Origin: Parietaria judaica
Lineage: Eukaryota; Streptophyta; Magnoliopsida; Rosales; Urticaceae
Assembly (NCBI GenBank): GCA_954871525.1
Contig: OX940866.1
Location: 16,329,001-16,393,000, forward strand
DNA length: 64,000 nucleotides
Direction of reading: 5' to 3'
Made by a program: the position numbers and the translations under genes. Position 1 is the stretch's first letter, and each line of letters begins with the position of its first letter. Shown here in pieces: positions 4,690 to 63,752 of this stretch. The notes under the pieces were generated by a model. It searched no databases, was not told where the DNA came from, and saw only the letters and a program-made list of their open reading frames with translations.

Positions 4690-5152
4690 TGTTACTGACG
4701 TTGCGGTTGATAAGAGGTTCGGGAAAGCGTACTCAAGGCTCGTCACAAAACCGAGCACAAGTGGCACGAAGAATTAATAGTCGAGTTCGGCATTTCTTTT
4801 ATTTTCGTTTTTTTATACAAGAAAATAATACAAACCCTTAAATAGCCTTTTGTGAAAGGAAGAGGGGTATGCAGAGATTAGTCTAGAGTTCCCGGAGAGG
4901 GGAATTAGGGCTAAACGCTGCTCTTGTGTATCGTGTTTGTGTTCGTTCGTTTCCCCAGTGTGGAGATTGAAATCGATCTCCTTGAATCCATACTCTTCGT
5001 TGAATTGCTATCTCTCTCTGTGTGGATTGGATCTGGAACCTTATTGCGTGCAGGTTGAGAGTGGAAGCCATCATCGAACACGGCTCGGGGAAGGTGGAAC
5101 TTCGTGAGAACTACGCCGCCAATCACGAGGGCTGGATCTCGGGGTCGTAACA
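4690..5152 (+). repeat. 5' LTR of the Ty3/gypsy element
   Basis: 463 bp, TG...CA ends. It differs from the 3' LTR by substitutions near bases 7, 16, 36 and in the ATACAAG/ATACCAG stretch. A weak TATA-like TTTTTTTATAC lies around 4808. The first 88 bp correspond to coding sequence in the 3' copy. Confidence 0.95.
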
Positions 5153-5155
5153 TCT

Positions 5156-5168
5156 TGGTATCAGAGCC
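5156..5168 (+). other. Primer-binding site, initiator tRNA-Met type
   Basis: TGGTATCAGAGCC begins three bases after the 5' LTR and is complementary to the 3' end of plant initiator methionine tRNA, the usual minus-strand primer of plant LTR elements. Confidence 0.9.
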
Positions 5169-5178
5169 ACCTCTCGTG

Positions 5179-10510: not shown

Positions 10511-10885
10511 TAGTCGAGTTCGGCATTTCTTTTATTTTCGTTTTTTTATACCAGAAAATAATACAAACCCTTAAATAGCCTTTTGTGAAAGGAAGAGGGG
10601 TATGCAGAGATTAGTCTAGAGTTCCCGGAGAGGGGAATTAGGGCTAAACGCTGCTCTTGTGTATCGTGTTTGTGTTCGTTCGTTTCCCCAGTGTGGAGAT
10701 TGAAATCGATCTCCTTGAATCCATACTCTTCGTTGAATTGCTATCTCTCTCTGTGTGGATTGGATCTGGAACCTTATTGCGTGCAGGTTGAGAGTGGAAG
10801 CCATCATCGAACACGGCTCGGGGAAGGTGGAACTTCGTGAGAACTACGCCGCCAATCACGAGGGCTGGATCTCGGGGTCGTAACA
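10423..10885 (+). repeat. 3' LTR of the Ty3/gypsy element
   Basis: 463 bp, the partner of 4690-5152, followed by the target duplication GATCA at 10886-10890. It contains the last codons of Pol up to the stop at 10508-10510. Confidence 0.95.
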
Positions 10886-16987: not shown

Positions 16988-17245
16988 GAAACGAGGTCGA
17001 GGAACCAATCCAAAAGCCCCGATGGCGGCGATGATGATGATGAGAACGATGATGCAGAAGACCCGAACTACATTCAAGGCGAGGAGGAGGAAGTCGAAGA
17101 AGTTGAGGAAGTTCTACCAGCACTACGTGGTGAACAACGCTTGGTTACAGGTGTGGGCAGTCTACCCCCCCATCCGCCGCCGAGGAAGCGAAAGAAATTA
17201 ACGGGAGCAGTTTGGCAGAACGACTTCAGAGCCGAGTACAGATAC
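16988..17245 (+). pseudogene. Exon-like fragment encoding an acidic region, cut by an LTR
   Basis: After TTTTTTAG an open frame runs about 86 codons with SPDGGDDDDENDDAEDP, then GEEEEVEEVEEVLP and RKRKKLTGAVWQNDFRAEYR. It ends abruptly where the copia LTR begins at 17246. The sharply higher GC content than the flanks and a plausible acceptor suggest a genuine exon of a gene interrupted by the retrotransposon. A second frame through the same bases is also open and strongly basic. I do not recognise the protein and see no continuation elsewhere in the window. Confidence 0.35.
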
Positions 17246-19991: not shown

Positions 19992-21829
19992 ATGGTTCAA
20001 GGATAAATAATTACGTAATTTAATTAACGGTTTAAGAACGAATTATTTGATGAATAAAATTAATTATTTAAAATTGCTTGATATTTTAAATATTAATTTA
20101 AAATTATAAATATTACCCGACCCAAAAAATCGGACCGGGTGGTTGAACGGGGCTGCACGTTGGCAGCCCAGTCCGTGGTGGGCGCCAAAGGGGCTGCCCT
20201 GCAGCCCCAGGATTTGGGCCGCAGAGCCCACGGGCAGGCCCACGCCAAGGCCCCTCGGCCAGGGCAAGGGCGCCCTTACGGGCCCAGCGCGCGGGCCACG
20301 AGCCACGCTCCCTGGCAGCGTAATGGGCCTGCACGCCCAGCCCGAGGACGCGCGCTGCCCTGGCCAGCCCGTGGGCTGACCCTGCCCTTTCCACGGGCAA
20401 GTGGGCCCGGGCTTAACGCCGGAGTGCCCACGTGCAATTTTTTTAAAATAGGGCCGGATTTTTATTCCTACCCGGATTTCGTTGATTAAATATTAATTAT
20501 TATTAATGAAATTAAAATTTATGAATTAAAATTAATTATGTTTGATTAATTAATATAAATTAAAATATGGATGTTATTTCCGGATAAATAACATTGTCTT
20601 ATTTTAATAATTCATAAAATTAAATATGGATGTTATTTAATAATTAAATAACATTGTCTTATTTAATAAATTAAAATATGGATGATAATATTCGAATAAT
20701 AATACCATTGTCTTATTTTAATATTTCATAAATAATAATTAATGGGCATTAAAATGTTTAATGATAATTCTTAGAGAATAAGTATCATTAACATAAGATT
20801 ATAAATATTCATCATAGATATAATTTGTTATAACCTATTTTCATAACCATCAAACATAGTGTCTATGTTTAGATCATTATTAATATGTCTATATAGGATA
20901 GATATAAATAATAAAGAGTAAATGTAAAAGTGTTTATTATTAGTCAGAAAAATTTCAACCGTACAATCTTGCCTAAGGAAGAGGGAATTAAAAGTGGGGC
21001 CGGTTCACCATCCACTTCTGGGTGACCGGTTAGGAACCCTCCCATCAACCTGGAGAGCGTACAGATTGATCTATCACTACCGACGAAATAATAAATACAT
21101 TTCTTAGGCTTATTTAAAATTACGTGTCGTAATGATTAAAGCAAAAAATATAAACTTTTAATGTGTCATTAATAGACAGTTTATATAATAAGTTTTTATA
21201 ACTTAGAAATTTAAAACGTTATTTTCCTAAAAACAACGGCAAGTGTAGAATAAAACAAAGGTCTCCATTATTACTGTCTCAACGTCTGCTGACCACACCG
21301 CCTCGAGTCACCTTAGTGTGTCCATTCCCCAAGGAAGGTGTGCTTGTGGAAGGTTTGACACCGTGATAGTTCCAAAATAATATGGGGACGGAGGAATCTT
21401 GGAAATGGACCGCGAGTCACCCTAGTGTGACCATTCCCTAAGGACGATGTTTCCAAGAGGATCCCGAGAACCGAAAATAATGGGTTAAGCTTGCACGGAA
21501 GTTGGTGCTTCCCGACCATCTATGGTGATAGTTAATAATCATAGAGAACTTTGGTGGTTCTTGTTATGAATATTAATTAAGTTTATGACTAAAACTTAGT
21601 TTAACCAAACTACACGGTTGATACCGCGAGTCACCCTAGAGTGATCATGCCACTAAGGACGGCAACAACGTGTACAGTCGGTTAAATCATCACGAATTAG
21701 TTAAAGGGTTTATTTAACGTTTTCCCAGAACATGTTTGCATCATGTAACTATTTCAAACAAATTTTTCAAAAACATTCTACCTATAGTAAAGTTTAATAA
21801 GTTTCTTTTTCAATGCCAGTTAAATTGTC
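19992..21829 (+). other. Long structured leader of copia element 1
   Basis: About 1.8 kb without a credible coding frame. It has a GC-rich island (about 20118-20440, full of GGGCC/GGCCC) in otherwise AT-rich DNA. Four hairpins follow: ATGTTATTT...AAATAACAT at 20570-20594, the same type at 20629-20653 and 20681-20708, and one at about 20758-20795. A motif CCGCGAGTCACCCTAGTGTG...CCTAAGGAC is present three times, starting at about 21300, 21410 and 21624. The same order recurs in copia elements 2 and 3. It ends at TTTCTTTTTCAATGCCAGT, just before the gag position. Confidence 0.7.
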
Positions 21830-23406
21830 TTTCGACAAACAAGAAATGGAACTCTCTGCTCTGACGCTCAAGTCTCAAAACCAAAGCGATCTGGCAAAAG
21901 TCACGAAATCCCTAAGCAAGCTGGCTATGAGTGGATCCTTAAAGAAACTCCGAATGGCAGATCAGAAGCATCAAACTCAATGAACAAGAGGAAGCGAATA
22001 ATTGTAAACCTGGAAGAAACTTTCCAGAATGGGAGTACAAACAATGTTGATTATTCAGTATTGGAATCATGCTTCGTTGACAACTCATCCTTCAACTGGA
22101 TCTTGGATTCAAGAGCAAACGATCATGCATGTAATTCTCTTCAGTCCCTTGATTCATTAGAAGAAATAAATGAAGGACCAGCTTTATAAGTAGGAACAAA
22201 TGAGTTTCTACAAGCAAAAGTTGTGGGAAATTTGCGACTGACATTTGAGAATAAATTCTTATTCGTTAATAATGTATATTATTACCCAAATGTCAGCAGG
22301 AATATACTATCGGCTTTTCTGTTGTACGAACAAGCTAAACCTTAAATTTTTGTGGGTCCCATTGGGTCATCACGAAAGACGGTGTATACATTTGTACTGC
22401 CAAAGCAGAAAATGGATTGTATATTCTGAGACCAGATTATGGGAGTTGCATGAATGCTGAAATGTTCAAATTGGCTATGCCAAGGTCAATTAAGAAACCC
22501 AAAATTGATAATGATGTCCAAACATATATGTGGCACTTAAGATTAGTCATATTAATCTAGACAGGATAAACAGGCTGGTAAAGGAGGGACCCCTTAAAGA
22601 ACTAACAATCGGTTCTTTGCCTGTTTGTGAATCCTGTATAGAGGCTAAAATGACAAAAAGACCTTTTTCTGTAAAAGGTCAAAGAGCCACAAGACCATTA
22701 GAACTCGTCCACACAGATGTATGTGGCCATATGAACATACAGGCGAGGGGTGGAATTGAATATTTTGTCACCTTCATTGATGACTATTCAAGATATGGTT
22801 ATGTTTACTTAATGGCTAAGAAATCTGAAACCTTGGGTAAGTTCAGAGAATTTCTAGCAGAAAGTGAAAATCAACTTGGACTATCATTGAAATCTCTTCG
22901 GTCAGATCGAGGAGGAGAATACCTTGATCATGAGTTTAGTGATCTCTTGATTGAAAAAGGTATAGTATCTCAATTGACTGCTCCTGGCACACCAGAACAA
23001 AATGGTGTTGCAGAAAGGAGGAACATGACCCTACTAGAAATGGTAAGGTCCATGCTGAGCTATTCATCACTACCCAACTCATTCTGGGGATATGCTTTGT
23101 TGATGGCAACCAACATTTTAAATGTTGTGTGCTCTCAAAATCTGTTTCAAAAACTCCCCTTGAATTATGGAATGGCAGAATACCAAACCTGCGACATTAC
23201 AGAATTTGGGGCTGTCCAGCACATGTGCGGACATGAAACAGGAATAAACTGGAATCACGAACTGAAGTATGTCTGTTCGTAGGATATTCCAAAGAGACAA
23301 ATTGAGGTTTGTTTTATAGTCCACAAAGCAAGAAAGTATTTTTTCTACAAATGCTACATTTCTGGAAGAAGACTATATGATGAACTTCAAACTTCGAAGC
23401 AAAATA
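21830..23406 (+). pseudogene. Copia element 1 pol fragment: protease and integrase
   Basis: Gag is missing: the leader joins directly to sequence before the protease. The protease site reads WILDSRANDHACN where active copia has DSGA, so the catalytic Gly is lost. Next come a pre-integrase zinc region (the conserved HLRLGHIN is degraded; PVCESCIEAKMTKRPF) and the integrase core 22530-23282 with HTDVCGHMNIQ, FIDDYSRYGYVYL, SDRGGEYLD and GTPEQNGVAERRN. Several stops and frame changes are present (for example TAA at about 22188 and 23280). Integrase preceding reverse transcriptase identifies Ty1/copia. The region is interrupted at 23407 by a solo LTR and continues at 26136. Confidence 0.85.
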
Positions 23407-31160: not shown

Positions 31161-32000
31161 ATGTCGAATCCCATCATGTCACTGCTTTCGAACAACACTC
31201 TCGCCAGAAGTAACTTTCTGAAATGGAAGAGCAATATAAATATTGTCTTAATCAGTGAAAACATACGCTTTGTTCTCACTGAGGAATGTCCCCCTGCACC
31301 GGCTGCTAGCAGCGCCAGAGGTGTAAAGGAACTCTATGACTCTTGGGTTCATGCAAATAATCGTGCTAAGGCATATATGCTGGCTAGCATGTCTGATTCA
31401 ACGATAATCAAACTAGAGGAAAAGGACACTGCTTATGAGATCATGGAATCTCTCCAAGGAATGTATGGAAAGCAGTCTGAGCAAGCTCAACATGAAGCGA
31501 CTCGTTGCTACATGAATGCCAAAATGAAACTAGGAACATATGTCTGTGACCATGTCATGAGCATGACCAATTGGTTTAATGAGGCTGAGCTGCATGGGGC
31601 CGTGGTGGATGAGAAGTCTCAGATCAGCATTATTCTTAATTCACTGTCACCTAAGTTTGCTACATTCACCAGCAACTACATTATGAACAAACTGAAATAT
31701 GGTTTGACACAGTTGATTAATGAGTTGCAAACCTATGAGGACATCTCGGGTTTGGTGAAGAAAAAATCTGAATTGAACGTAATGTTCAAGAAAGGATCTT
31801 CATCTAAGAACCCGAGAATGAAGAAAAAGCCCATTCCTAAGAAAAAGTGGGGAAGGAATTTCCAGCCGAAGACCGCAGACAAGAAAGCCGCTGAGAAAGG
31901 AAGACGCTTCCTTTGCAAGGAAAATGGACATTGGAAAAGAGATTGTCCCAAGTTCCAAAATGAAAAGAAGAACGAAACTGATGAGTGTATCACCCGATAA
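31161..32000 (+). CDS. Copia element 2 Gag
   Basis: 279 codons from ATGTCG, directly after the leader's CAATGCCAGT. N-terminal MSNPIMSLLSNNTLARSNFL and FLKWKSNINIVLISENIRFV, then a helical copia Gag (UBN2-type) domain with AYEIMESLQGMYG, AKMKLGTYVCDHVMSMTNWF and PKFATFTSNYIMNKL. The C-terminus is lysine-rich and ends in a nucleocapsid knuckle reading LCKENGHWKRDCP. The first cysteine of the usual C-x2-C-x4-H-x4-C motif is replaced (RRFLC), so zinc binding is doubtful. The frame is otherwise intact. This is the only complete gag of the family here and shows what the gag position normally contains, which matters for the foreign gene in element 3. Confidence 0.85.
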   Translation: MSNPIMSLLSNNTLARSNFLKWKSNINIVLISENIRFVLTEECPPAPAASSARGVKELYDSWVHANNRAKAYMLASMSDSTIIKLEEKDTAYEIMESLQGMYGKQSEQAQHEATRCYMNAKMKLGTYVCDHVMSMTNWFNEAELHGAVVDEKSQISIILNSLSPKFATFTSNYIMNKLKYGLTQLINELQTYEDISGLVKKKSELNVMFKKGSSSKNPRMKKKPIPKKKWGRNFQPKTADKKAAEKGRRFLCKENGHWKRDCPKFQNEKKNETDECITR

Positions 32001-32431
32001 GTTTCCCACACACATTTGTTTTAGAAAGTATGTTTCTCCAAAGATCTAAAACTGAAAATATGTGATATTCTTTGTTTTTCAGCAGCAGCTAAGGAGTGAT
32101 TGTCTGTGGTCATCCGAGAGTCTCGGAGATCCTAGTCGGCAGCAGTGGAAGAGACTCATTTTTAATTTATTTACTCAATTCATGTATTGATCTATATTAT
32201 GTTAAAGGGTGATTTGAAAAACCCTTCGACCTTTTTCTCAACAATATTAAGTTTTATTTAATAAAGTTTATTTTCGATCCTATGAAATTTTGAGTAAATA
32301 TACGAGCTCTTCATTGATACATAAACCTTGACGTGCCATAAGCACTGACTTGCTAAATCACGAAGGTTGATATCTAATCATAGTAATAAGTTTACTATGA
32401 TGGAAATAAGAAGACAATAGGTTACCCTGCT
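32001..32431 (+). other. Non-retroviral insert between gag and RT in copia element 2
   Basis: Protease and integrase are absent. In their place are about 430 bases with a plant-like intron (GTATGT near 32029 to TTTTTCAG near 32092), a short exon ending in TAA (CAGCAGCTAAGG), then AT-rich sequence with an AATAAAG polyadenylation-like signal near 32260. It looks like the last exon and 3' UTR of a gene. It ends at GTGACAAAGTCAC, where pol resumes. Confidence 0.45.
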
Positions 32432-32928
32432 ATCAAGTGACAAAGTCACAGCACCGGCAGCAGTGCCTGTTGTCAAAGAGAGTGCGGAAACCGCGGTCCC
32501 AAATCAGAACCTAGGGGTACTCAGACGTAGTGGGAGGTTCAAAAGACCTGTTGAACGCTACGAGCACACCCAGTTGAAATATCACCTAGCTGTTACAAAC
32601 ACTAGTGTTGAAGATCCCATAGGCTACAAGCAAGCTATGATGGATCCTGATCAGGGAGAATGGCAGGAAGCCATGAACTAAGAAATAGAATCAATGGATT
32701 CTAACAAAGTCTGGGAACTTGTAGACTTACCGGATGGTTTCAAAATCATTGGCTGTAAGTGGGTATACAAGAGAAGAAGAGGAGTGGACGGGAAGGTTGA
32801 AACCTTCAAGGCTAGACTAGTGGCTAAGGGTTTTACCTAGAGGGAAGGTATTGATTTCGATGAGACCTTTGCTTTACTCGCTAAGTAAATTCTAGTGGCT
32901 AAGGGTTTTACCCAGAGGGAAGGTATTG
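32432..32928 (+). pseudogene. Copia element 2 pol fragment: start of reverse transcriptase
   Basis: Reads DKVTAPAAVPVVKESAETAV, VPNQNLGVLRRSGRFKRPVE, then YEHTQLKYHLAVTN, ESMDSNKVWELVDLPDGF and CKWVYKRRRGVDGKVETFKA. It contains stops at about 32680 and 32838. The phrase CTAGTGGCTAAGGGTTTTAC is duplicated (32817 and 32892). At 32929 it switches into the middle of an LTR, so the rest of pol is lost. Confidence 0.8.
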
Positions 32929-39399: not shown

Positions 39400-41854
39400 T
39401 GTTGGGAAGTTCATTACGTTTCCCGATAATATTATCACGATTTATGCCGTCAAGCCGTCTGGGTAACATTTAAAAAATATTTAAAGCGGAATAACTTGTT
39501 ACCCATACAACGATTTGAACATCGGATAACAACCAAAGTCAATATCTGATAAATTATTACTAATTTAACTTTTCATATATTCATTATTAATAATCTAGTC
39601 TATAGGAAATAAATAAACTGTAAATAAAGGTTTCCATTTATTGACCCAATGCAAAAAGCCGTACCTCAGGTGATTACGATTCCGGCTGCGCGTTCAGAAC
39701 TGGGCTGGGCTTCGTCGATTTTGAGGAAAACTCCAGTGATCTTATGGGATATTCTCCTAGACTCCTCGTACCGAAGCGTGGGCTTCGCCGGCAGGACTCC
39801 GTCGAAAAAACCTTATGTGATGGTTCTTTTGAAGCTTTCGGAGAACAACGTCTCACTAAGCCGAACCAGAAAAGAGAGATCAAAGGCTAAGAAATTCGCG
39901 GACTCTAGAAAGAGAGAGATAAAGATTGAATTCTTGCTCTAGGGAAGGTGTGTGAAATGTGTAGAATGAGCCTTGTATTTATAGGCACATGGAGAAGCCA
40001 ATAAGGGAAGCTTCCATGCATGAATTTCGAATTCTATAATGGGCAAATATAAGTAATCACTCCAAACCAATGGCCAAGATTGAATCACCAACGATCCAAT
40101 GGTTATGATTCATTAGGGATTTAACCAAATAAGGAAACCATGAATAAATCAATTATCCAATCACTTCCTTATATAAGAGAATTCGAATTCCCTATGCATG
40201 CATATGGAAATTTCGAAATCAATAGTCTAGATCCAATGGTTGGAATTAATTCCATAACCAATCTAATGGACCATATTGGTTTAGCATAAAGTCAAGCCTC
40301 ATTACTTGTTCACCAAGCAAAAATTCGACCTCCATTATAAAGAATTCGAATTTTGCATTTCCATATATACATGTTAATTAATTTCCAATCGAATGGTTAA
40401 GATTAAATCTTAAACTAATCTAATGGATATAATTAATTAAGCAATTTGAAATCCATGCTTGGTCACCAAGTCATTTTCGAATTTAGCTTTCTAAATTAAT
40501 TATCATGATACAACGGTTAAGATCAAACTTGACCGATCTAATGAACCAAATGAATTTCAAGGTTTTCCATTAATACCTAAACATAGGTACATATGCCGCA
40601 TATTTGGAAAGTCTAAATCCAAGTAAATTCATGTAAGCCCAACTCACACATTTACTTGGGCCGCATTATTTCTAAACATTTATATATATACCAAATATAT
40701 ATTTTTATTTAAATAACATAAATCTACTAATTATTAATTAATTATTAATAAGACTATTAATAATTAAATCCAAATAATGAAATTATATTATTAACCTTTA
40801 ATCTCAATATCACACATTAAATGTCGTGGTGCAACACCACCATTTAATGTCGTGACATGTGATTAAATTTCACCTATTTACGAAAACGATCATAAACTTG
40901 GAAATTCTCTTAATCACAAATCGTACGTTGAAACGACTCGGTTCCAAAAGAAAAGTCTCTTAGAATTTAGATTTCAACAACTTTGAAGTTGATGAAAAAT
41001 CTAAATTTAACTTTCTTTTATAAGTTAAATTTCCAGCACCAAACTTTGGTACTTTTGCCACGTCAAAAATAAAACTTCCAAAGTCTGACACAGACTGTAT
41101 ATTTATGAATCTTGACAAGTGATAAAACATGCCGAATGTTTAAATCACGTATGTATCATCTGTTCCGGAGCTATCCTGAGGACCATGGACCCGTATCACT
41201 TAAGCTCCAACAAACTGCTAGTGTTTCGTCAAACCTTGGTGTTATTCCACTATAAACCCGAGGCTACACTCTCTAGTGATACAATATATATTATTCCCTT
41301 TATAGCAAGGTGTCCATTGATACAATCAAATTCGGGTTATTGATCTTTCACTTGATGATCCACACACAAGCAGGCGGTTTTTACCGTTTTGCCTCTCATT
41401 GCATTTTCAACCTCAACTCAGTTAGTAATATTGTGAGTTAACCACTTATGGTTTCGATTCATAAGTTGCGCACGGGTACCTCTCACTTCTCACAACTAAC
41501 AATCAAGGGAATCATCATCACTCTGAAGAGAGCTATGTGATGTCTGTGTCTATGACCAAGCAACCCATCTGTTGACTATTATGTTCCCAAAATAGCAGCA
41601 TTGGGAACGACAATAAATGTGTTCTTTAACAGTTAAATCAAAGAGCAATCAAGTCAACAGTCCAGGCTCGAGGTCACTCAGGAATTAGATTGAATATCCA
41701 TTTGATCATCTCCTAGTGACTCAACTCCAAATTGTCAGTGACGGTCATATATAACAACTTTCGGTGTTTAAGTCAGGTCCAGTCCAGTATGAAACCGCTT
41801 CATACTTAATGCACTTCTACTGAGTGTGACACACAAACACCAAACACAAACACA
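39400..41854 (-). repeat. Truncated copia LTR, minus orientation
   Basis: Starts TGTTGGGAAG and runs as a reverse-complement copy of the 2.7-kb LTR, including inverted TATA region and CCGTCTGGGTAACATTT. It belongs to a diverged subfamily shared with the fragment at 54513-55302. Its last roughly 390 bp (the LTR 5' end) are missing at an inverted junction near 41854. Confidence 0.8.
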
Positions 41855-44224
41855 AACCGCTTCATACTTAAACTCCGGAAGTTATCATATAAGACCGTCA
41901 CTGATAACTTGGAGTTGAGTCACTAGTAGATGATCAAATGGATATTCGATCTAAGTCCTGAGTGATCTTGAGTCCGAGCTGCTGGCTTGATTGTACTTTG
42001 ATTTAACCGTTAAAGAACACGAAATATTACCGCTTTTCCAAACACTATTATTTTGGGAACATGATAGTCAGCAGTAAGGGTAGCTTGGTCATAGACATGG
42101 GCATCACACAGCTCTCTTCAGAGTGATGATGATTCCCTTGATTGTCAGTGGTGACAAGTGAGAGGTACCCGTGCGCAACTTATGAATCGAAACCATAAGT
42201 GGGTTACTCATAATATTACTGACTGAGTCAATGATGAAAATGCAATGAGGGGGCATAACGGTAGAAACCGCCTGCTCGTGTGTGGATCATCAAGTGAAAG
42301 ATCAATAACCCGAATTTGACCGTATCAATGGACACCCTGCTGTTATAAAGGGAATAATGTATATTGTATCACTAAAGAGTGCAGCCTTGGATCTATAGTG
42401 GAATCACTTCAAGGTTTGACGAACAACTAGCAGTTTGTTGGAGCTTAAGTGATACGGGTCCATGGTCCCCAGGATAGCTCCGTAACGGATGATACGTACG
42501 TGATAAAGACATTGAAATGTTTTTAAGATAATTTGGCAAGACTCATAAAACTGAAGTCTGTGACAGACATCAGATAGTTTTATTAGTAGCGTGGCAAAAA
42601 TACCATATCTTGGTAACCGAAATTAACTGACAAAATAAAGTAGAATTTGGATTTTCTGTGATCATGAAAGTTGTTGTAAATTAAATTCTAAGCAACTTTG
42701 CTTTCGGAACCGAGTCGTTTCGACGTACAGTTTGTGATTTAGAGAATTTCTAAGTTTGTGATCGTTTCCGTAAACTATGAAATTAAATCACATGTCACGA
42801 ATTTAAATGATGGTGTGTCACCATGACATTTAAATGTGTGATATTGAGATTAGAGAATATTAATATAATTTAATTATTCGAATTTTATTATTAATGTATT
42901 ATTAATAATTATTCAATAATTAATAGATTTATATTAATATGAAAATAATATATTTTATATATATTATAGTGTAGAAATCGAATTGGGCTTTTGGAATGTG
43001 GATCCATTCACATTCGAATGGATAGACTTTGGTCTTTCCATAAATGCGGCAAAAGTACCAAAAGTTTTGGTATTTGAGAAAAACCTAAAATCAATTTAAT
43101 CCATTGGATCGGTTATGATTTATTATCAACCGTTGGATTAGGATATTGATGAATTCGAATTTAATGACTTGGTGATCAAGTTTCATTTTTCGAATTTGAT
43201 TAATTAATTATATCCGTTAGATCCGTCTAAGATTTAATCTTTACCGTTGGATTGGAAATTAATTAATTATATATAATTATATTATTTTCGAATTATAGTT
43301 TAAGGATAAATTTGAAATTGTTTTTATTAAATCTTTTTATATTTGATTTTATCCTAAACTAATTTGATCCATTAGATCGGTTTAAAGATTTATCTCAACC
43401 GTTGGATCTAGATAATGATAATTCGAATTTTAATATATATATAATTCGAATTTATAAAGATAAGAAGATAAGATTGAAATTTTTATTTTATCATAATCTT
43501 TCTTATTTAAATAAATCCCAAATTAATTATATCCATTGGATTTAGATGAGATTAAATCTGGACCATTGGATTGAGATAATTAATTATATTTAATAAATGA
43601 AATTCGAAAATAAGAGAGGGAATTTCTCCAATTCGGTTACGGTTTGAGCCTATAAATAGGAGGCTCATTCTACACATTTTTCACACCTTTCCCCAGAGAA
43701 AAATTCGAACTCTCCCTCTCCTTTAGGGTCTGCGAATTGTCTCTCTGATCACTCTCTCTGGTTCGGCTTAAGAGACTTAGTTCTCCGGAAGCATAAAAAG
43801 AACCATTAGTTTAAATTTTGCGACGGAGTCCTGCCGGCGAAGCCCACGCTTCGGTACGAGGATTCCAGGAGAATATCCCGGAAGATCACAGGAGTTTCTC
43901 TCAGTACTGGCGGAGCCCTGCCCGATTCAGAACGCGCAGCCGGAAGTCGTCAATAGAGGTATGGCCTTATGCATTGGGTTAATAAATGCAACCATTTACT
44001 GCTTTCTATTTATTTCCTATTATGACTAGATTATTAATAATGATTTATGAATATTAAATTACATAATATTTATCAGATCTTGTTAAATGGTTATTATCCG
44101 ATATCCGGACCGTTGCATGGATAACAATTTATTCCACTTTAAATTAATTTTTAAATGTTACTCGGACTGTTCGGAGGTATAATTCATGATAATTTTCATG
44201 GAATTCGAGACGTGATTTCCTACA
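41855..44224 (+). repeat. Copia element 3: 5' LTR, 5'-truncated
   Basis: Begins within the LTR at the phrase AAACTCCGGAAGTTATC and runs to TTTCCTACA at 44224. TATAAATAG is at 43651-43659. It closely matches the 3' LTR at 51801, and both belong to the same subfamily. The first 377 bp are replaced by the inverted junction with 39400-41854, with the phrase AAACCGCTTCATACTTA present on both sides. Confidence 0.85.
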
Positions 44225-46081
44225 ATTGGTATCAGAGCCATGGTTCAAGGATAAATAATTACGTAATTTTATTAATGGGTTTTAAGAATGAATTATTTGA
44301 TGAATAAAATTAATTATTTAAAATTGAAATTTTGAATTTCTAGATATTTTAAATATTAATTTAAAATAAGAATATTACCCGACCCAAAAAAATTGGACCG
44401 GGTAATTGGACCGGGCTGCCCTTGGCAGCCCAGCCCGTAGGAAGGAACGAACAGGGTGTTCGCCCAGCAAGCCCACAAACAAGGCCCACGAGCAAGGCCC
44501 ACGCCAAGGTCACTCGGCAAAGGCAAGGGCACCCGTGTGGGCCTGGCGCGCGGGCCGCAGGCCACGCTGTCTGGTAGCGGAATGGGCCTGCAGGCCCAGC
44601 CCGAAGGGCCCGCGTGCTGCCCTGGCTCACCCGTGGGCTGTCCCTGCTCATTCCACGGGCACGTGGGCCCGGGCTTAACCCCGGAGGACCCACGTGCAAT
44701 TTTTATAATGGGTCGGATTTTTATTCCGACCCGGATACCGTGGATTAATTATTAATTATTAATAATGAAATTAATATTTATGAATTAAAATTAATTATGA
44801 TTAATTAATATAAATTAAAATATGGATGTTATTTTCGGATAAATAACATTGTCTTATTTTAATAAATTCATAAAATTAAATATGGATGTTATTTAATGAT
44901 TAAATAACATTGTCTTGTTTAATGAATTAAAATATGGATGATAATATTCGAAGAATAATATCATTGTCTTATTTTAATATTTCATAAATAATTATTAAAG
45001 GGCATTAAAATGTTTAATGGTAATTCTTAGAGAATAAGTATCATTAACATAAAATTATAAATATTCATCATAGATATAATTTGTTATAACCTATTTTCAT
45101 AACCCTCAAACATAGTGTCTATGTTTAGATCATTATTAATATGTTTGTATAGGATAGATATAAATAATAAAGAGTAAATGAAAAAGTGTTAATTATTACT
45201 CGAAAAAATTTCAAACGTACAATCTTACCTAAGGAAGAGGGAATCAAAAGTGGGGCCGGTTCACCATCCACTTCTGGGTGACCGGTTAGGACCCCTCCCA
45301 TCGACCTGGAGAGCGTACGGTTTGATCTATCACTACCGATAAAATAATAAACACATTTCTAGGGCTTATTTAAAATTACGCGTCGTAATAAATAAAGCCA
45401 AAATCTAAAGTTTTAATGTGTCATTAATAGACAGTTTATATAATAAGTTTTTATAACTTAGAAATTAAAAATGTTATTTCCTAAAACAATGGCAAGTATA
45501 GAATAAAACAAAGGTCTCCATTATTACTGTCACAACATCTGCTAACCACACCGCCTCGAGTCACCCTAGTGTGTCCATTCCCTAAGGAAGGTGTGCTTGT
45601 GGAAGGTTTGACACCGTGATAGTTCCAAAAGAATATGGGGACGGAGGAATCTTGGAAATGGACCGCGAGTCACCCTAGAGTGACCATTCCCTAAGGACGA
45701 CGTTTCCAAGAGGATCCCGAGAACCAAAAATAATGGGTTAAGCTTTCACGGAAGTTGGTACTTCCCGACCGTCTATGGTGATAGTTAATAATCATAGAGA
45801 ACTTTGGTAGTTCTTGTTATGAATATTAATTAAGTTTATGACTAAAACTTAGTTTAACCAAACTACACGGTTGATACCGCGAGTCACCCTAGAGTGACCA
45901 TGCCACTAAGGACGGCAACGACGTGTACAGTCAGTTAAATTATCACGAAATAGTTAAAGGGTTTTATTTAACGTTTTCCCGGAACATGTTTGCATCATGT
46001 AACTATTTCAAATAAAATATTTTTCAAAAACATTCTACCTATAATAAAGTTTAATAAGTTTCTTTTTCAATGCCAGTTAAA
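44225..46081 (+). other. Leader of copia element 3 with primer-binding site
   Basis: Primer-binding site TGGTATCAGAGCC at 44227-44239. It has the same layout as in elements 1 and 2: GC-rich island at about 44395-44700, hairpins at about 44822-45060 (for example ATGATAATATT...AATAATATCAT near 44938-44965), and the triplicated GAGTCACCCTAG motif at about 45554, 45663 and 45878. It ends CAATGCCAGTTAAA directly before ATGTC. Confidence 0.75.
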
Positions 46082-47007
46082 ATGTCTAAAGCTATTAATG
46101 TCACGGATGATGAAAAAGATTCGGTCAACTCTGGTCCTCCATCTGAGTTTGAGCTACCGATATTTGAAGAAGTGTCTAAAGCTATTAATGTCACGGATGA
46201 TGAAAAAGATTCGGTCAACTCTGGTCCTCCATCTGAGTTTGAGCTACCGATATTTGAAGAAGGCAGTGCTTGGTTCAAGTCTGATAATGAATATGAGTTA
46301 CTCAGTTTCTTATTAGACCAGTATCCAAACAAGAGTCAATCCTTCAAAGATTCGGTACTCAAAGCCTCGATGGGTGAAATTGAGAGACTAATGAAAAAGG
46401 TGAACAAAGTACGGCTTTTGTCACTCAAGCAATGGCAAAAGATAACAAACGAAAGACTGAATCGAAAGCTGAACCCGGAAGAAAAGAAAGAAAAGTTGGT
46501 TTATCTGCAATGTGCTTCCAATGTGGAACAAGGAAGAGAGTGCCAGGTCAGCTGCGATGCAGACTGCACATCAATTCACAAAAGGGTAAGACCTTTTCTG
46601 AATAAGAAATTAGTTTTTTATTGGAGAGATTCAAATCTCAGATCCATAGATTAAAATTCTAAACATTGCAAATATTTTTCATTACAGAAGTTGCTTCTGC
46701 TAAGAAGAAAAACGGAAATGGAGCTTTATGCATTGAATGCTGGCTCAAACCAAGAGCAAAGGGGAACACGATGTGCCGAGAACATCTGCGGGCTTGGAGA
46801 GGTAATAACTCTTCTGTTAACCCCGAAATTAGTTTTTATTGGAGAGATTCAAATCTCAGATCCATAGATTAAAATACTAACGCTTGTTCATTTTCTTTTC
46901 AGGATTCAGCAGGAGCTCTGTTGATGAGAACTCAGCAGAGAACGAAAGCGGCTAGTACTCGAGTGTCTCGAAGAAGGAAGCATGCTTTAAGTTTATATTC
47001 GATTTAA
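46082..47007 (+). CDS. Three-exon gene of unknown function in the gag position of copia element 3
   Basis: Exons 46082-46585, 46688-46801 and 46903-47007 with GTAAGA...TTACAG and GTAATA...TTTCAG introns give one frame of 240 codons. The start ATGTC coincides with the gag start of element 2. Residues 1-30 (MSKAINVTDDEKDSVNSG to PIFEE) are repeated exactly as residues 31-60 by a perfect 90-bp duplication. Next come an acidic-to-basic helical part (FLLDQYPNKSQSFKDSVLKA, NPEEKKEKLVYLQC) and a Cys-rich stretch CASNVEQGRECQVSCDADC. In exon 2 a second frame is also open and reads CIECWLKPRAKGNTMCREHL, a C-x2-C-x11-C-x2-H pattern, so the true frame of exons 2-3 is uncertain. The two introns share about 50 nearly identical bases. 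I do not recognise the family. Host-gene capture is my inference. Confidence 0.5.
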
Positions 47008-47258
47008 GTTTATTGTTATCATTAATTTTGCATTGTTAAGACCTCGATTTATTTTTGGATATTAATTGCATGGAATAATTCTTAATTAATAAAGGTTTTA
47101 TATGTTTCGAATTATTTTGCAATATCCAGATAAATATAGTGACAGTTATTTTTGTTTCATCTATAGTCTTTAATTGCCCTAATTGATTAAATTAAATCAA
47201 ATGTCATTTTTAATCATGATGGTTAATAGAGAATGAAATTAGAGGAAATTATTCACAA
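47008..47258 (+). other. 3'-UTR-like stretch between the foreign gene and pol
   Basis: AT-rich, with AATAAAGG near 47090. It fits the 3' flank of the captured gene. It ends at TGTGACAAAGTCACAAC, where pol sequence resumes at the same palindrome as in element 2. Confidence 0.4.
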
Positions 47259-48828
47259 ATGGGATCTTGTGACAAAGTCACAACGCCGACAACAGTGCAT
47301 GTTGTCGAAGAGAGTACGGAAACCACGGTCCCAAATCAGAACCAAAGGGTACTCAGACGTAGTGGGAGGTTCAAAAGACCTCTTGAGCGCTACGAACATA
47401 CCCAGTTGGAATTTCACCTAGCTGTTACAAACACTAGTGTTAAAGATCCCATAGGCTATGAGCAAGCTATGATGGATCCTGATTAGGGAGAATGGCAGGA
47501 AGCCATGAACCAAGAAATAGAATCAATGGATTCTAATGAAGTCTGGGAACTTGTAGACTTACCGGATGGCTTCAAAACCATTGGCTGTAAGTGGGTATAA
47601 AAGCGAAAGAGAGGAGTGGACAGGAAGGTTGAAACCTTCAAGGCTAGACTAATGGCTAAGGGTTTTACCCAGAGGGAAGGTATTGATTTCGATGAGATCT
47701 TCGCTCCAGTCGCTAAGTATAAGTCCATCCGGATTCTCATGGCCATAGCCTGTAGTCTCAATTACGAGATTTGGCAGATGGACGTCAAAACCGCCTTCCT
47801 GAACGGGTACATTGACGAAAACATCTATATGGACCAACCAGAAGGGTTCCTGCAGAAGGGTCAAGAATGGAAAGTTTGCAGACTTCTCAAATCCATTTAT
47901 GGATTGAAGCAAGCTTCCAGATCCTGGAATCTAATGTTTGATGAAATCATCAAATCCTATGGATTCATACAGAACATCACTGAGGCCTGCATATACAAAC
48001 TCAATGATGAAACCGTGGAGATATTTCTAGTTCTATACGTCGACGATATTCTTCTCATTGGAAACAGTGTGAAGAGGCTATCGGACGTGAAAGCGTGGCT
48101 ATCTACGCAATTCCAAATAAAGGACATGGGAGAAGGCAGTTATGTTCTTGGGATCCGTATCTTTAGGGATCGCAACAACAGACTTCTAGCCTTATCACAA
48201 GCAGCTTACATTGATAAGGTGCTTGATCATTTTGCAATGGCAAACTCCAAGGGAGGTAATTTACCGACCAGGCATGGAGTATTCCTTAACAGGAAACAGT
48301 GCCCTACTTCTCCGGAAGAGCAAGATGAGATGAGGAGAGTACACTATGCTTCAGCAGTGGGAAGTCTGATGTATGCTATGTAGTGTACTAGGCCAGACAT
48401 CTGTTACGCTGTGGGAATTGTTAGCAGATACCAATCCAACCCAGGTATGGCTCACTGGACAGCAGTGAAGAACATTCTCAAGTATCTTCGGAGAACGAGA
48501 GACTATATGTTAGTGTTTTCAGGATCAGAACTGAATCCACTAGGTTACACTGATTCAGACTTTATGTCTGATAAAGACGCGAGAAAATCGACGTCGGGAG
48601 CAGTGTTCACCCTTGCTGGTGGAGCGATATTCTGGAGAAGCGTAAAGCAATCCTGTATCGCAGATTCCACAATGGAAGCTGAATACGTGACAGCTTGTGA
48701 GGCAGCCAAAGAATCATTTTGGCTCAAGAATTTCTACATAGAGCTGGGAGTTGTTCCAGATGTAGATGGGCCCCAAACACTATACTGTGACAATAGTGGT
48801 GCGGTGGCAAATTCTAAAGAGCCCAGAG
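47259..48828 (+). pseudogene. Copia element 3 pol: reverse transcriptase and RNase H
   Basis: From DKVTTPTTVHVVEESTETTV it passes through GRFKRPLERYEHTQLEFHLA, CKWV, KARLMAKGFTQREGIDFDEI, WQMDVKTAFLNGYIDENIYM, LLKSIYGLKQASRSWN, the catalytic LVLYVDDILLIGN (about 48029-48065) and VLGIRIFRDRNNRLLALSQA. RNase H shows GYTDSDFMSDKDARKSTSG, ADSTMEAEYVTACEAAKE and LYCDNSGAVA. In-frame stops: TAG at about 47485, TAA in the CKWV region (about 47598) and TAG at about 48381. Otherwise this is the best preserved RT of the family here. A solo LTR interrupts it at 48829, and the last codons resume at 51587. Confidence 0.9.
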
Positions 48829-51586
48829 TGTTGGAGATCACGTCTCGGATTCCTTGAAAAATTATCACAAATTGTACCTCCGAACCGTCCGGGTAACATT
48901 TAAAAAATTATTTTAAAGCGGAAAACTTGTTATCCTTACAACGGTCCGAATGTCGGATAATATCCATATCCCAAGATCTGATAAATATTATGTAATTTAA
49001 TGTTCATAAATCATTATTAATAATCTAGTCATAATAGGAAATAAATAGAAAGCAGTAAATGGTTGCATTTATTAACCCAATGCATAAGGCCGTACCTCAA
49101 TTGACGACTTCCGGCTGCGCGTTCTGAATCGGGCAGGGCTCCGCCAGTGCTGAGGGAAACTCCCGTGATCTTCCGGGATATTCTCCTGGAATCCTCGTAC
49201 CGAAGCGTGGGCTTCGCCGGCAGGACTCCGTCGCAAAATTTTAACTGATGGTTCTTTTTAAGTTTCCGGAGAAATAGTTTCCTAAACCGAACCAGAAAAA
49301 AAAGATCAGAGAGAAAATTCGCAGACCCTGAGGAAGAGGGAGAGTTCGAATATTTCTCTGGGGAAAGGTGTGAAAAATGTGTAGAATGAGCCTCCTATTT
49401 ATAGGCTCAAACCGTAACCGAATTGGAGAAATTCCCTCCCTAAAATTCGAATTCTATTAATTAAATATAATTAATTATTTCAATCCAATGGTCCAGATTC
49501 AATCTCATCTAAATCCAATGGATATAATTAATCATGGATTTAATTAAATAATAATACAAGATAAGATCAAAAAATTTAATCTTATCATTATATTATAATT
49601 ATTCGAATTATATTATACATATATATTTAAATTCGAATTTGATAATGATTATCTAGATCCAATGGTTAAAAATAAATCTTAAACCAATCCAATGGATCAA
49701 ATCAATTAGGGATAAAGTCAAATACCCTAGGATTTTACAAAACCCTAATTCGAAATCTTATCCACAATATTATTCGAATTATATATCATATATATAATAT
49801 TAATTAATTTCTAATCCGACGGTTAAAGATTAAATCTCAAAACCGATCCAACGGACATAATTAATTAAGCAAATTCGAAATACCTAAACTTGGTCATCAA
49901 GTTTCAATTTCGAATTACATTAGGTTTCAAATCAATTATCTCAATCCAACGGTTGATATTAAATCACAACCGATCCAATGGATTAAATTGATTTTAAGGT
50001 TTTTTGCCAAAATACCAAACAATAGGTACTTATGCCGCAAAAATAAAAATCTTCAATTCATAGATTCGAATTTAGCTAGGGTTTGTTATCACCAAACCCT
50101 AATTCGATTTTACACATGTAACAATATATAAAAATATATTTTTATTTATTAATATAAATCTATTAATTATTAATTAATTATTAATAATTAAATCCAAATA
50201 ATTAAATTATATTAATATTACCTGATCTCAATATCACACATTCAAATGTCATGGTGCCACACCATCATTTAAATTCGTGACATGTGATTTAATTTCAAAG
50301 TTTATCGAACCGATCATAAACTTAGAAAATCCATAAATCACTAACCGTAAGTCGAAATGACATGGTTCAAAAAGCAAAGTTGCTTAGAATTTAATTTCCA
50401 ACAACATGATGCTGATAGAAAATCTAAATTCTAACTTTCTTTTATCAGTTAATTTCGTGTACCAAAATATGGTACTTTTGCCACGCTAACGATAAAACTA
50501 TCTGACGTCTGCCACAGACCTTTCAGTTTTATAAGTCAAGCCAAATGATTAAACATTATCCAGAATCTATTTTAATCACGTACGTATCATCCGTTACGGA
50601 GCTATCCTGGGGACCATGGACCCGTATCACTTAAGCTCCAACGAACTGCTAGTTGTTCGTCAAACCTCGAAGTGATTCCACTATAGACCTGAGGCTGCAC
50701 TCTTTAGTGATACGCTATATATTATTCCCTTTATATCAGCAGGGTGTCCATTGATACAATCAAATTCGGGTTATTGATCTTTCACTTGATGATCCACACA
50801 CGAGCAGGCGGATTCTACCGTTATGCCCCTCATTGCATTTTCATCCTTGACTCAGTCAGTAATATTATGAGTGACCCACTTATGGTTTCGATTCATAAGT
50901 TGCGCACGGATACCTCTCACTTCTCACCACCGACAATCAAGGGAATCATCATCACTCTGAAGAGAGCTGTGTGATGCCCATGTCTATGACCAAGCTACCC
51001 TTACTGCTGACTATCATGTTCCCAAAATAATAGTGTTGGGAACAGCGGTAATATTTCGTGTTCTTTAACGGTTAAATCAAAGAACAATCAAGCCAGCAGC
51101 TTGGACTCAAGATCACTCAGGACTTAGATCGAATATCCATTTGATCATCTACTAGTGACTCAACTCCAAGTTATCAGTGACGGTCTTATATGATAACTTC
51201 CGGAGTTTAAGTCAGGTCCAGTCCAGTATGAAGATACTTCATACTTAATGCACTTCTAGTGAGTGTGACACACACAAAATCCAGAATAGGATTATCACTT
51301 AGTCACATTAATGACCTTATACGATTAATGGGCTCCCACCCAGTTGATCAGGTCACGGACATTTTAAGTTCATTTATTATGATTATTAATTCTTCCTCAC
51401 ATTGACTCTGTTGTGATAATAATAACATAATTGCATCCTTTATGAACTAAGGAATCAAACATTCTATTTTACTCTACCAGAAACTATAATAAGATTATCA
51501 TAATAAGCATCATCTTTATTCAACGACTTGTCATAATCTTTTACAAATTGATAAACTATCTTGTTTAAGGACACATATGTCCAACA
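48829..51586 (-). repeat. Solo copia LTR inserted in RNase H, opposite orientation
   Basis: 2,758 bp, plus-strand ends TGTTGGAGATCACGTCTCGG and ACACATATGTCCAACA. The target duplication CAGAG at 48824-48828 and 51587-51591 is perfect. It is the same subfamily as the element it sits in. The inverted TATA region (CTATTTATAGG) lies near 49395. Confidence 0.92.
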
Positions 51587-51785
51587 CAGAGACCATAACA
51601 AGGCGAAACATATAGAGAGAAAATACCATCTCATTAGAGAGATAGTACGTCGAGGCGATGTACGGGTTGTGAAAATAGCTTTGGAAGACAATCTGGCTGA
51701 TCCATTCACCAAGACGTTGCCAGAGAAAATATTCAGGAGGCATCTGGAGAGTATAGGTCTGAAAGACATGGGTCATCTTCTTTAA
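51587..51785 (+). pseudogene. Copia element 3: C-terminal end of pol
   Basis: This continues the RNase H frame across the solo LTR: DHNKAKHIERKYHLIREIVR, RGDVRVVKIALEDNLADPFT and KTLPEKIFRRHLESIGLKDM, ending GHLL and TAA at 51783-51785. HIERKYHLIRE...NLADPFTK is the conserved end of copia Pol. Confidence 0.88.
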
Positions 51786-51800
51786 GTACAAGTGGGAGAT
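51786..51800 (+). other. Polypurine tract of copia element 3
   Basis: Purine-rich CAAGTGGGAGAT (51789-51800) immediately before the 3' LTR, three bases after the pol stop codon. Confidence 0.8.
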
Positions 51801-53695
51801 TGTTGGACATATGTGTCCTTAAACAATATATTTTTATCCATTTGTAAAAGATTATGACAAGTCGTTGAATAAAGATGATGCTTATTATGATAATCTTATT
51901 ATAGTTTCTGGTAGAGTAAAATAGAATGTTTGATCCTTAGTTCATAAAGGATGCAATTATGAATTATTATCACAACAGAGTCAATGTGAAGAAGAATTAA
52001 TAATCATAATAAATGAACTTAAAATGTCCGTGACCTGATTAACTGGGTGGGAGCCCATTAATCGTACAAGGTCATTAATGTGACTAAGTGACAATCCTAT
52101 TCTGGATTTTGTGTGTGTCACACTCACTAGAAGTGCATTAAGTATGAAGTGTCTTCATACTGGACTGGACCTGACTTAAGCTCCGGAAGTTATCATATAA
52201 GACCGTCACTGATAACTTGGAGTTGAGTCACTAGTAGACGATCAAATGGATATTCGATCTAAGTCCTGAGTGATCTTGAGTCCGAGCTGGTGGCTTGATT
52301 GTTGTTCCCAACACTATTATTTTGGGAGCATGATAGTCAGCAGTAAGGGTAGCTTGGTCATAGACATGGGCAGCACACAACTCTCTTTAGAGTGATGATG
52401 ATTCCCTTGATTGTCGGTGGTGAGAAGTGAGAGGTACCCGTGCGCAACTTATGAATCGAAACCATAAGTGGGTTACTCATAATATTACTGACTGAGTCAA
52501 GGATGAAAATGCAATGAGGGGCATAACGGTAGAAACCGCCTGCTCGTGTGTGGATCATCACGTGAATGATCAATAACCCGAATTTGATTGTATCAATGGA
52601 AACCCTGCTGTTATAAAGGGAATAATGTATACCGTATCACTAAAGAGTGCAGCCGCTGGTCTATAGTGGAATCACTTCGAGGTTTGACGAACAACTAGCA
52701 GTTCGTTTGAGCTTAGGTGATACGGGTCCATGGTCCCCAGGATAACTCCGTAACGGATGATACGTACGTGATAAAGACATTGAAATTTTTTTAAGATCAT
52801 TTGGCAAGACTCATAAAACTGAACTCTGTGAAAGACATCAGATAGTTTATCAGTAGCGTGGCAAAAGTACCATATCTTGGTAAACGAAATTAACTGACAA
52901 AATAAAGTAGAATTTGGATTTTCTGTGATCATGAAAGTTGTTTGAAATTAAATTCTAAGCAACTTTGCTTTTGGAACCGAGTCGTTTCGACGTACGGTTT
53001 GTGATTTAGAGAATTTCTAAGTTTGTGATCGTTTCGGTAAACTATGAAATTAAATCACATGTCACGAATTTAAATGATGGTGTGTCACCATGACATTTAA
53101 ATGTGTGATATTTAGATCAGGGAATATTAATATAATTTAATTATTCGAATTTTATTATTAATGTATTATTAATAATTATTCAATAATTAATAGATTTATA
53201 TTAATATGAAAATAATATATTTTATATATATTATAGTGTAGAAATCGAATTGGGCTTTTGGAATGTGGATCCATTCACATTCGAATTGATAGACTTTGGT
53301 CTTTCCATAATTGCGGCAAAAGTACCAAAAGTTTTGGTATTTGAGAAAAACCCTAAAATCAAATTAATCCATTGGATCGGTTATGATTTAATATCAACCG
53401 TTGGATTAGGATATTGATGAATTCGAATTTAATGACTTGGTGATCAAGTTTCATTTTTCGAATTTGATTAATTAATTATATCCGTTAGATCGGTCTAAGA
53501 TTTAATCTTTACCGTTGGATTGGAAATTAATTAATTATATATAATTATATTATTTTCGAATTATAGTTTAAGGATAAATTCGAAATTGTTTTTATTAAAT
53601 CTTTTTATATTTGATTTTATCCTAAACTAATTTGATCCATTAGATCGGTTTAAAGATTTATCTCAACCGCTGGATCTAGATAATGATAATTCGAA

Positions 53696-53734
<39 letters not shown>

Positions 53735-54510
53735 CGAATTTATAAAGATAAGAAGATAAGATTGAATTTTTTATTTTATCCTAATCTTTCTTATTTAATT
53801 AAATCCCAAATTAATTATATCCATTGGATTTAGATGAGATTAAATCTGGACCATTGGATTGAGATAATTAATTATATTTAATAAATGAAATTCGAAAATA
53901 AGAGAGGGAATTTCTCCAATTTGGTTACTGTTTGAGCCTATAAATAGGAGGCTCATTCTACACATTTTTCACACCTTTCCCCAGAGAAAAATTCGAACGC
54001 TCCCTCTCCTTTAGGGTCTGCAAATTTTCTCTCTGATCTCTCTTTCTGGTTCGGCTTAAGAGACTTAGTTCTCCGGAAGCTTAAAAAGAACCATCAGTTT
54101 AAATTTTGCGACGGAGTCCTGCCGGCGAAGCCCACGCTTCGGTACGAGGATTCCAGGAGAATATCCCAGCAGATCACGGGAGTTTCCCTCAGCACCGGCG
54201 GAGCCTTGCCCGATTCAGAATGCGCAGTCGGAAGTCGTCAATAAAGGTACGGCCTTATGCATTGGGTTAATAAATGCAACCATTTACTGCTTTCTATTTA
54301 TTTCCTATTATGACTAGATTATTAATAATGATTTATGAATATTAAATTACATAATATTTATCAGATCTTGTTAAATGGTTATTATCCGATATCCGGACCG
54401 TTGCACGGATAACAAGTTATTCCGCTTTAAATTAATTTTTAAATGTTACCCGGACGGTTCGGAGGTATAATTCGTGATAATTTTCATGGAATCCGAGACG
54501 TGATTTCCTA
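51801..54510 (+). repeat. Copia element 3: 3' LTR
   Basis: Starts TGTTGGACATATGTGTCC directly after the polypurine tract. TATAAATAG is at about 53939-53947. A TA-repeat expansion lies at about 53702-53730. It ends GTGATTTCCTA at 54510, where CA and the target duplication are expected; instead it runs into another LTR piece. Confidence 0.85.
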
Positions 54511-54512
54511 TA

Positions 54513-63157: not shown

Positions 63158-63186
63158 TTTATGTTTTCCAGTTAAATATGCAAGTA

Positions 63187-63242
63187 ATATGTGCATAATG
63201 TATGTTTGTACATCTTTATTCAAACATACATTATGCACATAT
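63187..63242. repeat. Perfect 22-bp hairpin within a direct repeat
   Basis: Arms 63187-63208 and 63221-63242 are perfect reverse complements over 22 bases with a 12-base loop. In addition a 33-base phrase beginning CCAGTTAAATATGCAAG occurs at 63168-63200 and again at 63254-63286, so three copies of ATATGTGCATAATG lie in about 120 bases. Confidence 0.7.
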
Positions 63243-63752
63243 TCATGGCATATCCAGTTAAATATGCAAGTAATATGTGCATAATGCATTGTATTTGTTG
63301 ATTGTTTTAGTTCTTATCAAACAATACTGTTTTGTTTGAGTAAAGATAAATTTATTAATTCATATGACATATAATAACTTTTTCTATTCATTTCAAATAA
63401 ATTTATAAAAATAATTGCATTTTAATTTAATCTCACATTTAATTTAACACAGTCATTTTATGATTTTATGATACCATGTTACCTCTGGTTTAGAGTTTTC
63501 TTATTTAATACTATTTAATCTAAAATAGAGTTATTATAAATAATTTATAATTTTCTTAGATTTTTCAGTGTTATACATTAAAATATCATTAGTAATTAAT
63601 GTAAAAATGTCATAGACTAATAATTACTATTAAAAATATATAAATAAGAATATTACTTCTAAAATATATAAATATATATCTTTTTAGGGGCCTTCAATAA
63701 AATATTTTATCACCTAGCCCCCCATAATATTAGGGCCGGCCCTGAAAATGGT

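Follow-up and report, generated by a model that had tools for sequence, protein, structure and literature searches.

A decayed copia-type retrotransposon of Parietaria judaica with an apparently intron-containing, gene-like segment in place of gag

The capture of genes by plant LTR retrotransposons is well documented (PMC13317346, PMC3726574, PMC2774510, PMC7264820). In the published accounts drawn on here, 672 genes captured by LTR retrotransposons were reported for rice and 1,343 for sorghum, with a higher share of pseudogenes in rice and with most of the captured genes being expressed in sorghum (PMC3726574); for maize, 425 intact elements with gene fragments were reported, 36 of them Copia (PMC2774510). 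For the expression of copia elements, the account of the Arabidopsis element EVD describes an shGAG product from a spliced, early-terminated mRNA next to an unspliced full-length RNA, and the unspliced full-length RNA of plant copia elements is described as the template for reverse transcription (PMC8892269); introns located in a gag slot therefore need not vanish on transposition. A literature search returned no publication on a host gene that replaces gag in a LARD, by which no absence from print is claimed.

The window, i.e. the whole 64-kb stretch of DNA that was analysed, is crowded with transposons. Three copia-type elements of one family (elements 1, 2 and 3; starts at 17242, 26560 and 41866) lie in the same direction, and in this family the LTRs are long (about 2.7 kb) and the leader measures about 1.8 kb. 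At 39428-44196 two LTRs, each without its first 0.3-0.4 kb, face each other head to head and form an imperfect palindrome with 77% identity; long ORFs at 4690-10885, which we take to be of gypsy type, are enclosed by direct repeats of 463 bp with 99% identity. The features of element 3, and the corresponding filling of element 2, are summarized in Table 1.

Table 1. Coordinates of the features of element 3 and of the corresponding slot filling of element 2
Feature	Position	Strand	Basis and remarks
Element 2, slot filling	31161..32436	+	Pfam; Gag ORF 31161-32000 plus 436 bp
Element 3, 5' LTR	41866..44224	+	self-BLAST; lacks about 373 bp at its 5' end
Primer binding site ATTGGTATCAGAGCC	44225..44239	+	sequence; presumably of initiator-Met tRNA type
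Leader, common to elements 1 and 2	44240..46081	+	sequence comparison
Exact 90-bp tandem duplication	46083..46262	+	Tandem Repeats Finder; 100% match, 2.0 copies
Exon 1	46082..46585	+	leader-ATG frame open to stop at 46652; module in other frame at 46513-46569
Intron 1, predicted	46586..46687	+	GTAAGA...TTACAG; 75% A+T
Exon 2	46688..46801	+	second C-x2-C-x11-C-x2-H module at 46729-46785
Intron 2, predicted	46802..46902	+	GTAATA...TTTCAG; 69% A+T
Exon 3	46903..46955	+	module-frame stop TAG at 46953-46955
Foreign segment, A+T-rich 3' part	46956..47268	+	75% A+T; ends at border GTGACAAAGTCAC, 47269
pol remnant: RT and start of RNase H-like region	47269..48828	+	
Solo LTR, family of elements 1-3	48829..51586	-	reverse insertion in the RNase H-like region of element 3
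End of RNase H-like region and polypurine tract (both presumed)	51587..51800	+	sequence
Element 3, 3' LTR	51801..54512	+	

Element 3 has the attributes of a Ty1/copia element in its LTR pair (95.6% identity over 2,209 bp and 97.7% over 129 bp), its primer binding site and its RVT_2-type RT (Pfam RVT_2, E 4e-63); an intact gag-PR-INT-RT-RH order is not present in the element. The original prediction had credited it with LTRs, primer binding site, RT and RNase H, and with the lack of gag, protease and integrase. This description is accurate for the LTRs (the 5' copy being truncated), the primer site, the RT, and the lack of a recognisable gag or integrase; the RNase H-like region is only presumably such, and a Pfam search of 48411-48857 gave no match. 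The whole of element 3 had no match to element 2 Gag at E<=1, and the best match to the integrase of element 1 had an E-value of only 0.73. Three in-frame stops are located in the RT (47484, 47598 and 48381), and the solo LTR is flanked by CAGAG on either side. With E 0.73 as the best value for any Gag or integrase match, and in view of the RT stops and the solo LTR, element 3 is a non-autonomous derivative; the copy is probably no longer working.

The leader of element 2 ends ...CAATGCCAGTCTAAA and is followed by ATGTCGAAT, and the leader of element 3 ends ...CAATGCCAGTTAAA and is followed by ATGTCTAAA; when the sequence was re-read, both leader ends proved to have been quoted correctly. The string TTTCTTTTTCAATGCCAG closes the leader in all three elements (3/3) and resembles a 3' splice site, with the leader of element 3 running out in a pyrimidine tract and CAG directly before the ATG. 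Upstream of this junction elements 3 and 2 are 89-94% identical in four 100-bp blocks, vs 47-54% in three 100-bp blocks downstream of ATGTC, the identity falling from 94% to 54% directly past ATGTC; between elements 3 and 1 the values are 88-92% upstream and 46-47% downstream. The foreign segment in element 3 comprises 1,186 bp (46083-47268) and is present as a single copy in the window. The multi-exon gene that had been placed at 46082..47007 is thus correctly positioned in the gag slot; its end is not, as the foreign DNA reaches to about 47268. The 90-bp duplication begins at the leader junction and makes up the first 180 bp of the segment. The four nucleotides TGTC follow directly on the leader in elements 1, 2 and 3, so that a match of 4 nt would be enough to account for the left junction.

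The right border is marked by the 13-mer GTGACAAAGTCAC, by eye a short perfect hairpin; each of the three elements contains it once (26160, 32437 and 47269), and the window has no further copy. In element 1 it falls inside an open frame, which we take to be the integrase-RT linker. In elements 2 and 3 it forms the same right border (32437 and 47269, respectively), directly 3' of fillings between which no similarity was established. This coincidence of the border with differing contents is not accounted for by one chance event, and in this respect counts against the capture reading given below; it suggests recombination between element copies and not random insertion. Element 1 carries about 175 unrecognised bases directly after the common leader (21826-22000; TTG in place of ATG), and the match to Gag-Pol relatives resumes at about 22001 (7/106 queries, E<=1e-3). 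The resemblance of these bases to element 2 gag is weak (2/200 shuffles and 1/780 placements as good), as is that to the element 3 segment (6/200 shuffles as good).

An assembly or cloning artefact, by which a gene piece was joined to the element, would fit with the one copy seen in the window; both borders are at places that element 2 uses, however, and element 3 runs on normally on either side of the segment, and we consider such an artefact extremely unlikely. No terminal inverted repeats were found at the segment borders, the best edge match being 11 bases with one mismatch and lying off the borders; the cargo of a DNA transposon (Pack-MULE type) nested in element 3, being without inverted repeats at its borders, was rejected as a candidate.

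The slot of element 2 contains a Gag ORF of 279 aa (Pfam Retrotran_gag_2, E 4.8e-20), for which a search of a database of about 5.8 billion proteins, plant proteins included, gave 106 proteins; the best matches were Zingiber proteins with about 70% identity over 77% of the length, and the named relatives are all from plants, bar one metagenome record. Two Zingiber proteins (P0078 and P0083) join a related Gag to P450-type and methyltransferase-type domains, possibly as gene-model fusions or as captures. None of the 106 Gag relatives matched 46083-47268 at E<=1e-3, and 44 matched it weakly (up to E 10; best E 0.26); the element 2 segment is matched by 106/106 by construction, as element 2 Gag was the query, and does not constitute an independent control. 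The Retrotran_gag_2 domain of copia Gag (PF14223) and the CCHC knuckle were not found in the element 3 segment, and in the protein of the module frame described below zf-CCHC had no match at E<=10 (Pfam). The view taken by eye in the original prediction, that the segment is unrelated to Gag, is thereby supported in so far as no Gag is recognisable in it.

A highly diverged or scrambled Gag, in which introns and modules would have arisen by chance, gains some support from alignments with loose gaps, in which 46262-46902 scores 100 against the element 2 gag region (equalled by 0/792 other window placements, best 97, and reached by 3/500 shuffles), and 187 when the 3' part is included (maximum of 136 in 200 shuffles). 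With strict gaps, however, the alignment of 46262-46902 is equalled by 87/500 shuffles, and exon 1 on its own does not stand out (153 and 364 of 500 shuffles as good); the loose-gap alignment is not taken as homology. For the 3' part of the segment against the post-gag region of element 2, none of 200 dinucleotide shuffles scored as high, 3/822 placements equalled it with loose gaps and 131/822 with strict gaps, and for the last part of the segment alone 27/830 placements were as good; this homology was dropped, since ordinary window sequence scores equally. The exon-3 part alone scored 52 against element 2 (best control 48; 0/836 placements). A divergence of this degree is hard to credit between flanks that are about 90% identical, and the module repeat is far beyond chance. 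Along with the missing matches to Gag relatives, this makes a diverged Gag unlikely as the identity of the segment, and we give it very little weight.

The two GT-AG introns that had been predicted fit the sequence at 46586-46687 and 46802-46902 and its composition: the A+T contents of the exonic stretches 46262-46585, 46688-46801 and 46903-46955 are 59, 53 and 49%, respectively, below those of the introns (Table 1), and the A+T content climbs from 49% to 75% directly past the stop at 46953. One module type, C-x2-C-x11-C-x2-H, is encoded both at the end of exon 1 and in exon 2; it occurs twice in the six frames of the window, both times in the segment, and in 60 mononucleotide shuffles of the window with a mean of 0.05 (maximum 1). 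Over 21 residues the module pair has a BLOSUM score of 49, reached by 1 of 20,000 shuffles, and in the module frame the differences at codon positions 1, 2 and 3 are 12, 8 and 14 of 20, i.e. fewest at position 2. The DNA likeness of the two module exons is at chance level (26/60; best chance match 30), so that the case for the modules is made at the protein level. The introns share 57 bp at 96% identity (46606-46662 and 46825-46880), which may go back to a recent local conversion event or to the copying of part of an intron. By its composition and module repeat, and with no Gag match, the segment presents itself as non-element coding sequence between the LTRs of element 3, and that it is, or once was, a gene is well supported by these features. 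Intron loss, as in copies of spliced mRNA, is not seen, two predicted introns being kept; such loss is not demanded of every captured gene.

The original prediction had the gene opened by ATGTC. The corresponding frame is open; its first in-frame ATG, however, is at 46070 (MPVK...), upstream of 46082 and still within the common leader. From either ATG the leader-ATG frame is stop-free until 46652, and the spliced frame as originally predicted is open to a stop at 47005-47007. The modules and the stop at 46953 are not in the leader-ATG frame. In the module frame, which ends at 46953-46955, the nearest stop upstream is at 46381, and one continuous protein would therefore have to shift frames somewhere from 46384 to about 46510. 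The module frame is likely the coding one for the end of exon 1 and for exons 2 and 3. We prefer it because the modules are repeated, because their differences follow a codon-position pattern, and because the A+T content changes at its stop; when the module DNA is read in the leader-ATG frame, the score is 1 (2,295 of 20,000 shuffles as high). Of the predicted spliced frame, its openness is retained, but the end of exon 1 and exons 2-3 are likely coding in the other frame. Codon usage speaks against this choice: a score trained on ORFs from the window, mostly those of transposons, ranks the leader-ATG frame above that of the modules for exons 1 and 2, but we give it less weight. Across 16 kb of LTR and leader sequence from elements 1-3 no stop-free run exceeds 142 codons, so that the leader-ATG frame, too, was probably coding at its start; 30 of its codons are a duplicate (90-bp repeat). 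The simplest reading is that of a gene broken between 46384 and about 46510.

The expression of a captured gene from the element's own leader and start codon, as proposed originally, is not supported: the leader-ATG frame is not the module frame, 34 ATGs lie in the leader upstream of 46070, the RT has three stops, and the RNase H-like region is split by the solo LTR; the 90-bp duplication likewise argues against the expression of a whole protein. A working protein from the segment is unlikely today, judged by these features. A spliced leader may be able to deliver an ATG, given its 3'-splice-site-like end.

The protein search of the spliced and the alternative frame, which had been named as a check, gave no relative in either reading among the about 5.8 billion proteins, within a range of 0.55-1.75 times the query length; since the search depends on common 5-residue words and passes over proteins that greatly exceed the query in length, it would miss a piece of a long gene. 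Searches of Pfam, PDB, NCBIfam and PHROGs gave no significant match to the segment proteins, and searches of viral and prokaryotic contigs gave no relative of the segment. Weak profile matches that were below the cut-off or insignificant, and were rejected, comprise Cas9 WED (E 0.0038), CB_ParB_C (E 0.75), GATA (E 0.032), HGG_STG (E 1.3), phrog_19644 (E 0.36) and phrog_1507 (E 0.062), as well as an insignificant PDB match (E 0.97); 15 matches to RNA families at 63170-63296, all to microRNA families and under their gathering scores, were also rejected. Two single-sequence structure models had mean pLDDT values of 61.5 and 65.6, too low for use.

We regard it as probable that element 3 is dead and non-autonomous, a copia derivative whose sequence between the gag start codon and a point shortly before the RT gave way to about 1.2 kb from a cellular gene with introns. 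The captured piece apparently comprises the last exons and the 3' flank of a gene with two C-x2-C-x11-C-x2-H modules. The sharp borders, the lack of a recognisable Gag, the exon/intron pattern, the module repeat, the duplication and the frame conflict are read directly from the DNA; the cellular origin is what we infer, because no donor or relative was found in the searches. Thus, of the captured host gene of the original prediction, the foreign, intron-containing, gene-like DNA in the gag slot is upheld, and the host as its source would be a plausible reading of it.

The capture mechanism we infer from the same marks, and we consider template switching in reverse transcription most likely. 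An unspliced cellular pre-mRNA would have been packaged together with the element RNA; reverse transcription would have switched templates at the GTGACAAAGTCAC hairpin onto the pre-mRNA, and would then have returned to the leader by way of the four matching nucleotides TGTC, where a slip may have copied 90 bp twice; the captured segment would have decayed afterwards. The retained introns had been taken to imply capture at the DNA level or of unspliced RNA; the latter fits, and the former is not forced by the introns, as full-length copia RNA is described as unspliced and serves as template in the account available (PMC8892269). Capture of the same gene at the DNA level, by break repair or gene conversion in a resident element via the TGTC microhomology and without an RNA step, appears rather unlikely, and is still to be taken seriously: the kept introns, the short microhomology and the tandem duplication at the junction all fit with it, but the right border lies where that of element 2 does, at a hairpin within element sequence, and this is easier to reconcile with recombination between copies of the element than with a break at a random site. 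DNA-level repair would leave marks identical to those of template switching, so that the marks cannot tell the two routes apart.

The common borders also bear on two readings in which the slot itself is a property of the family. One is that the stretch from the leader ATG to GTGACAAAGTCAC is an exchangeable cassette slot, filled by Gag plus spacer in element 2 and by a split zinc-module gene in element 3, and extending to the about 175 unrecognised post-leader bases of element 1; we consider this improbable. If true, the 3'-splice-site-like leader end would allow the expression of any content via a spliced leader. The other, which appears a shade more doubtful still, is that the segment belongs to the element family as one of its genes, an alternative cassette in the Gag slot whose zinc-type modules perhaps replace the nucleocapsid. 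It fits exactly between the borders used in element 2, is in sense orientation, has no relative among the searched proteins, and an intron is normal in copia gag expression as far as the EVD account goes (PMC8892269); against this, the segment is a single copy in the window, it shows the frame conflict and the duplication, and its module protein lacks a zf-CCHC match. Capture of a cellular gene by template switching is the reading that we prefer. If confirmed, element 3 would represent a clean example of an LTR element that took up a gene with introns precisely at the gag slot, and would be useful for asking if unspliced transcripts are a normal substrate of capture; the right border common to two copies with differing contents would make a route by cassette exchange testable.

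Compared with the described systems, element 3 is one decayed copy of a capture process that is already documented, and what it adds is a segment with introns that occupies precisely the gag slot, together with a right border common to a different filling. The surveys of rice, sorghum and maize, as reported, start from annotated genes, whereas the segment of element 3 is without a recognised donor, and unlike the captures described there, its borders coincide with those of another filling. Bs1 of maize resembles element 3 in carrying pieces of host genes in an LTR element (PMC13317346, PMC7264820). The donors given for Bs1 are known (ATPase, xylan endohydrolase and beta-1,3-glucanase; PMC13317346), whereas that of element 3 was not found, and the Bs1 hybrid gene is reported as transcribed and translated (PMC13317346), whereas element 3 has introns and a broken frame. 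In EVD, according to its description, the exon is Gag, in contrast to the non-Gag segment with two predicted introns in the slot of element 3. BARE-2 and Veju are described as having obtained novel sequence through abnormal template switching (PMC13317346), and in this they are like element 3; they differ in what was obtained and where, i.e. Wis-2 sequence in the LTR of BARE-2 and unknown DNA in a TRIM for Veju, vs a split gene in the gag slot of element 3.
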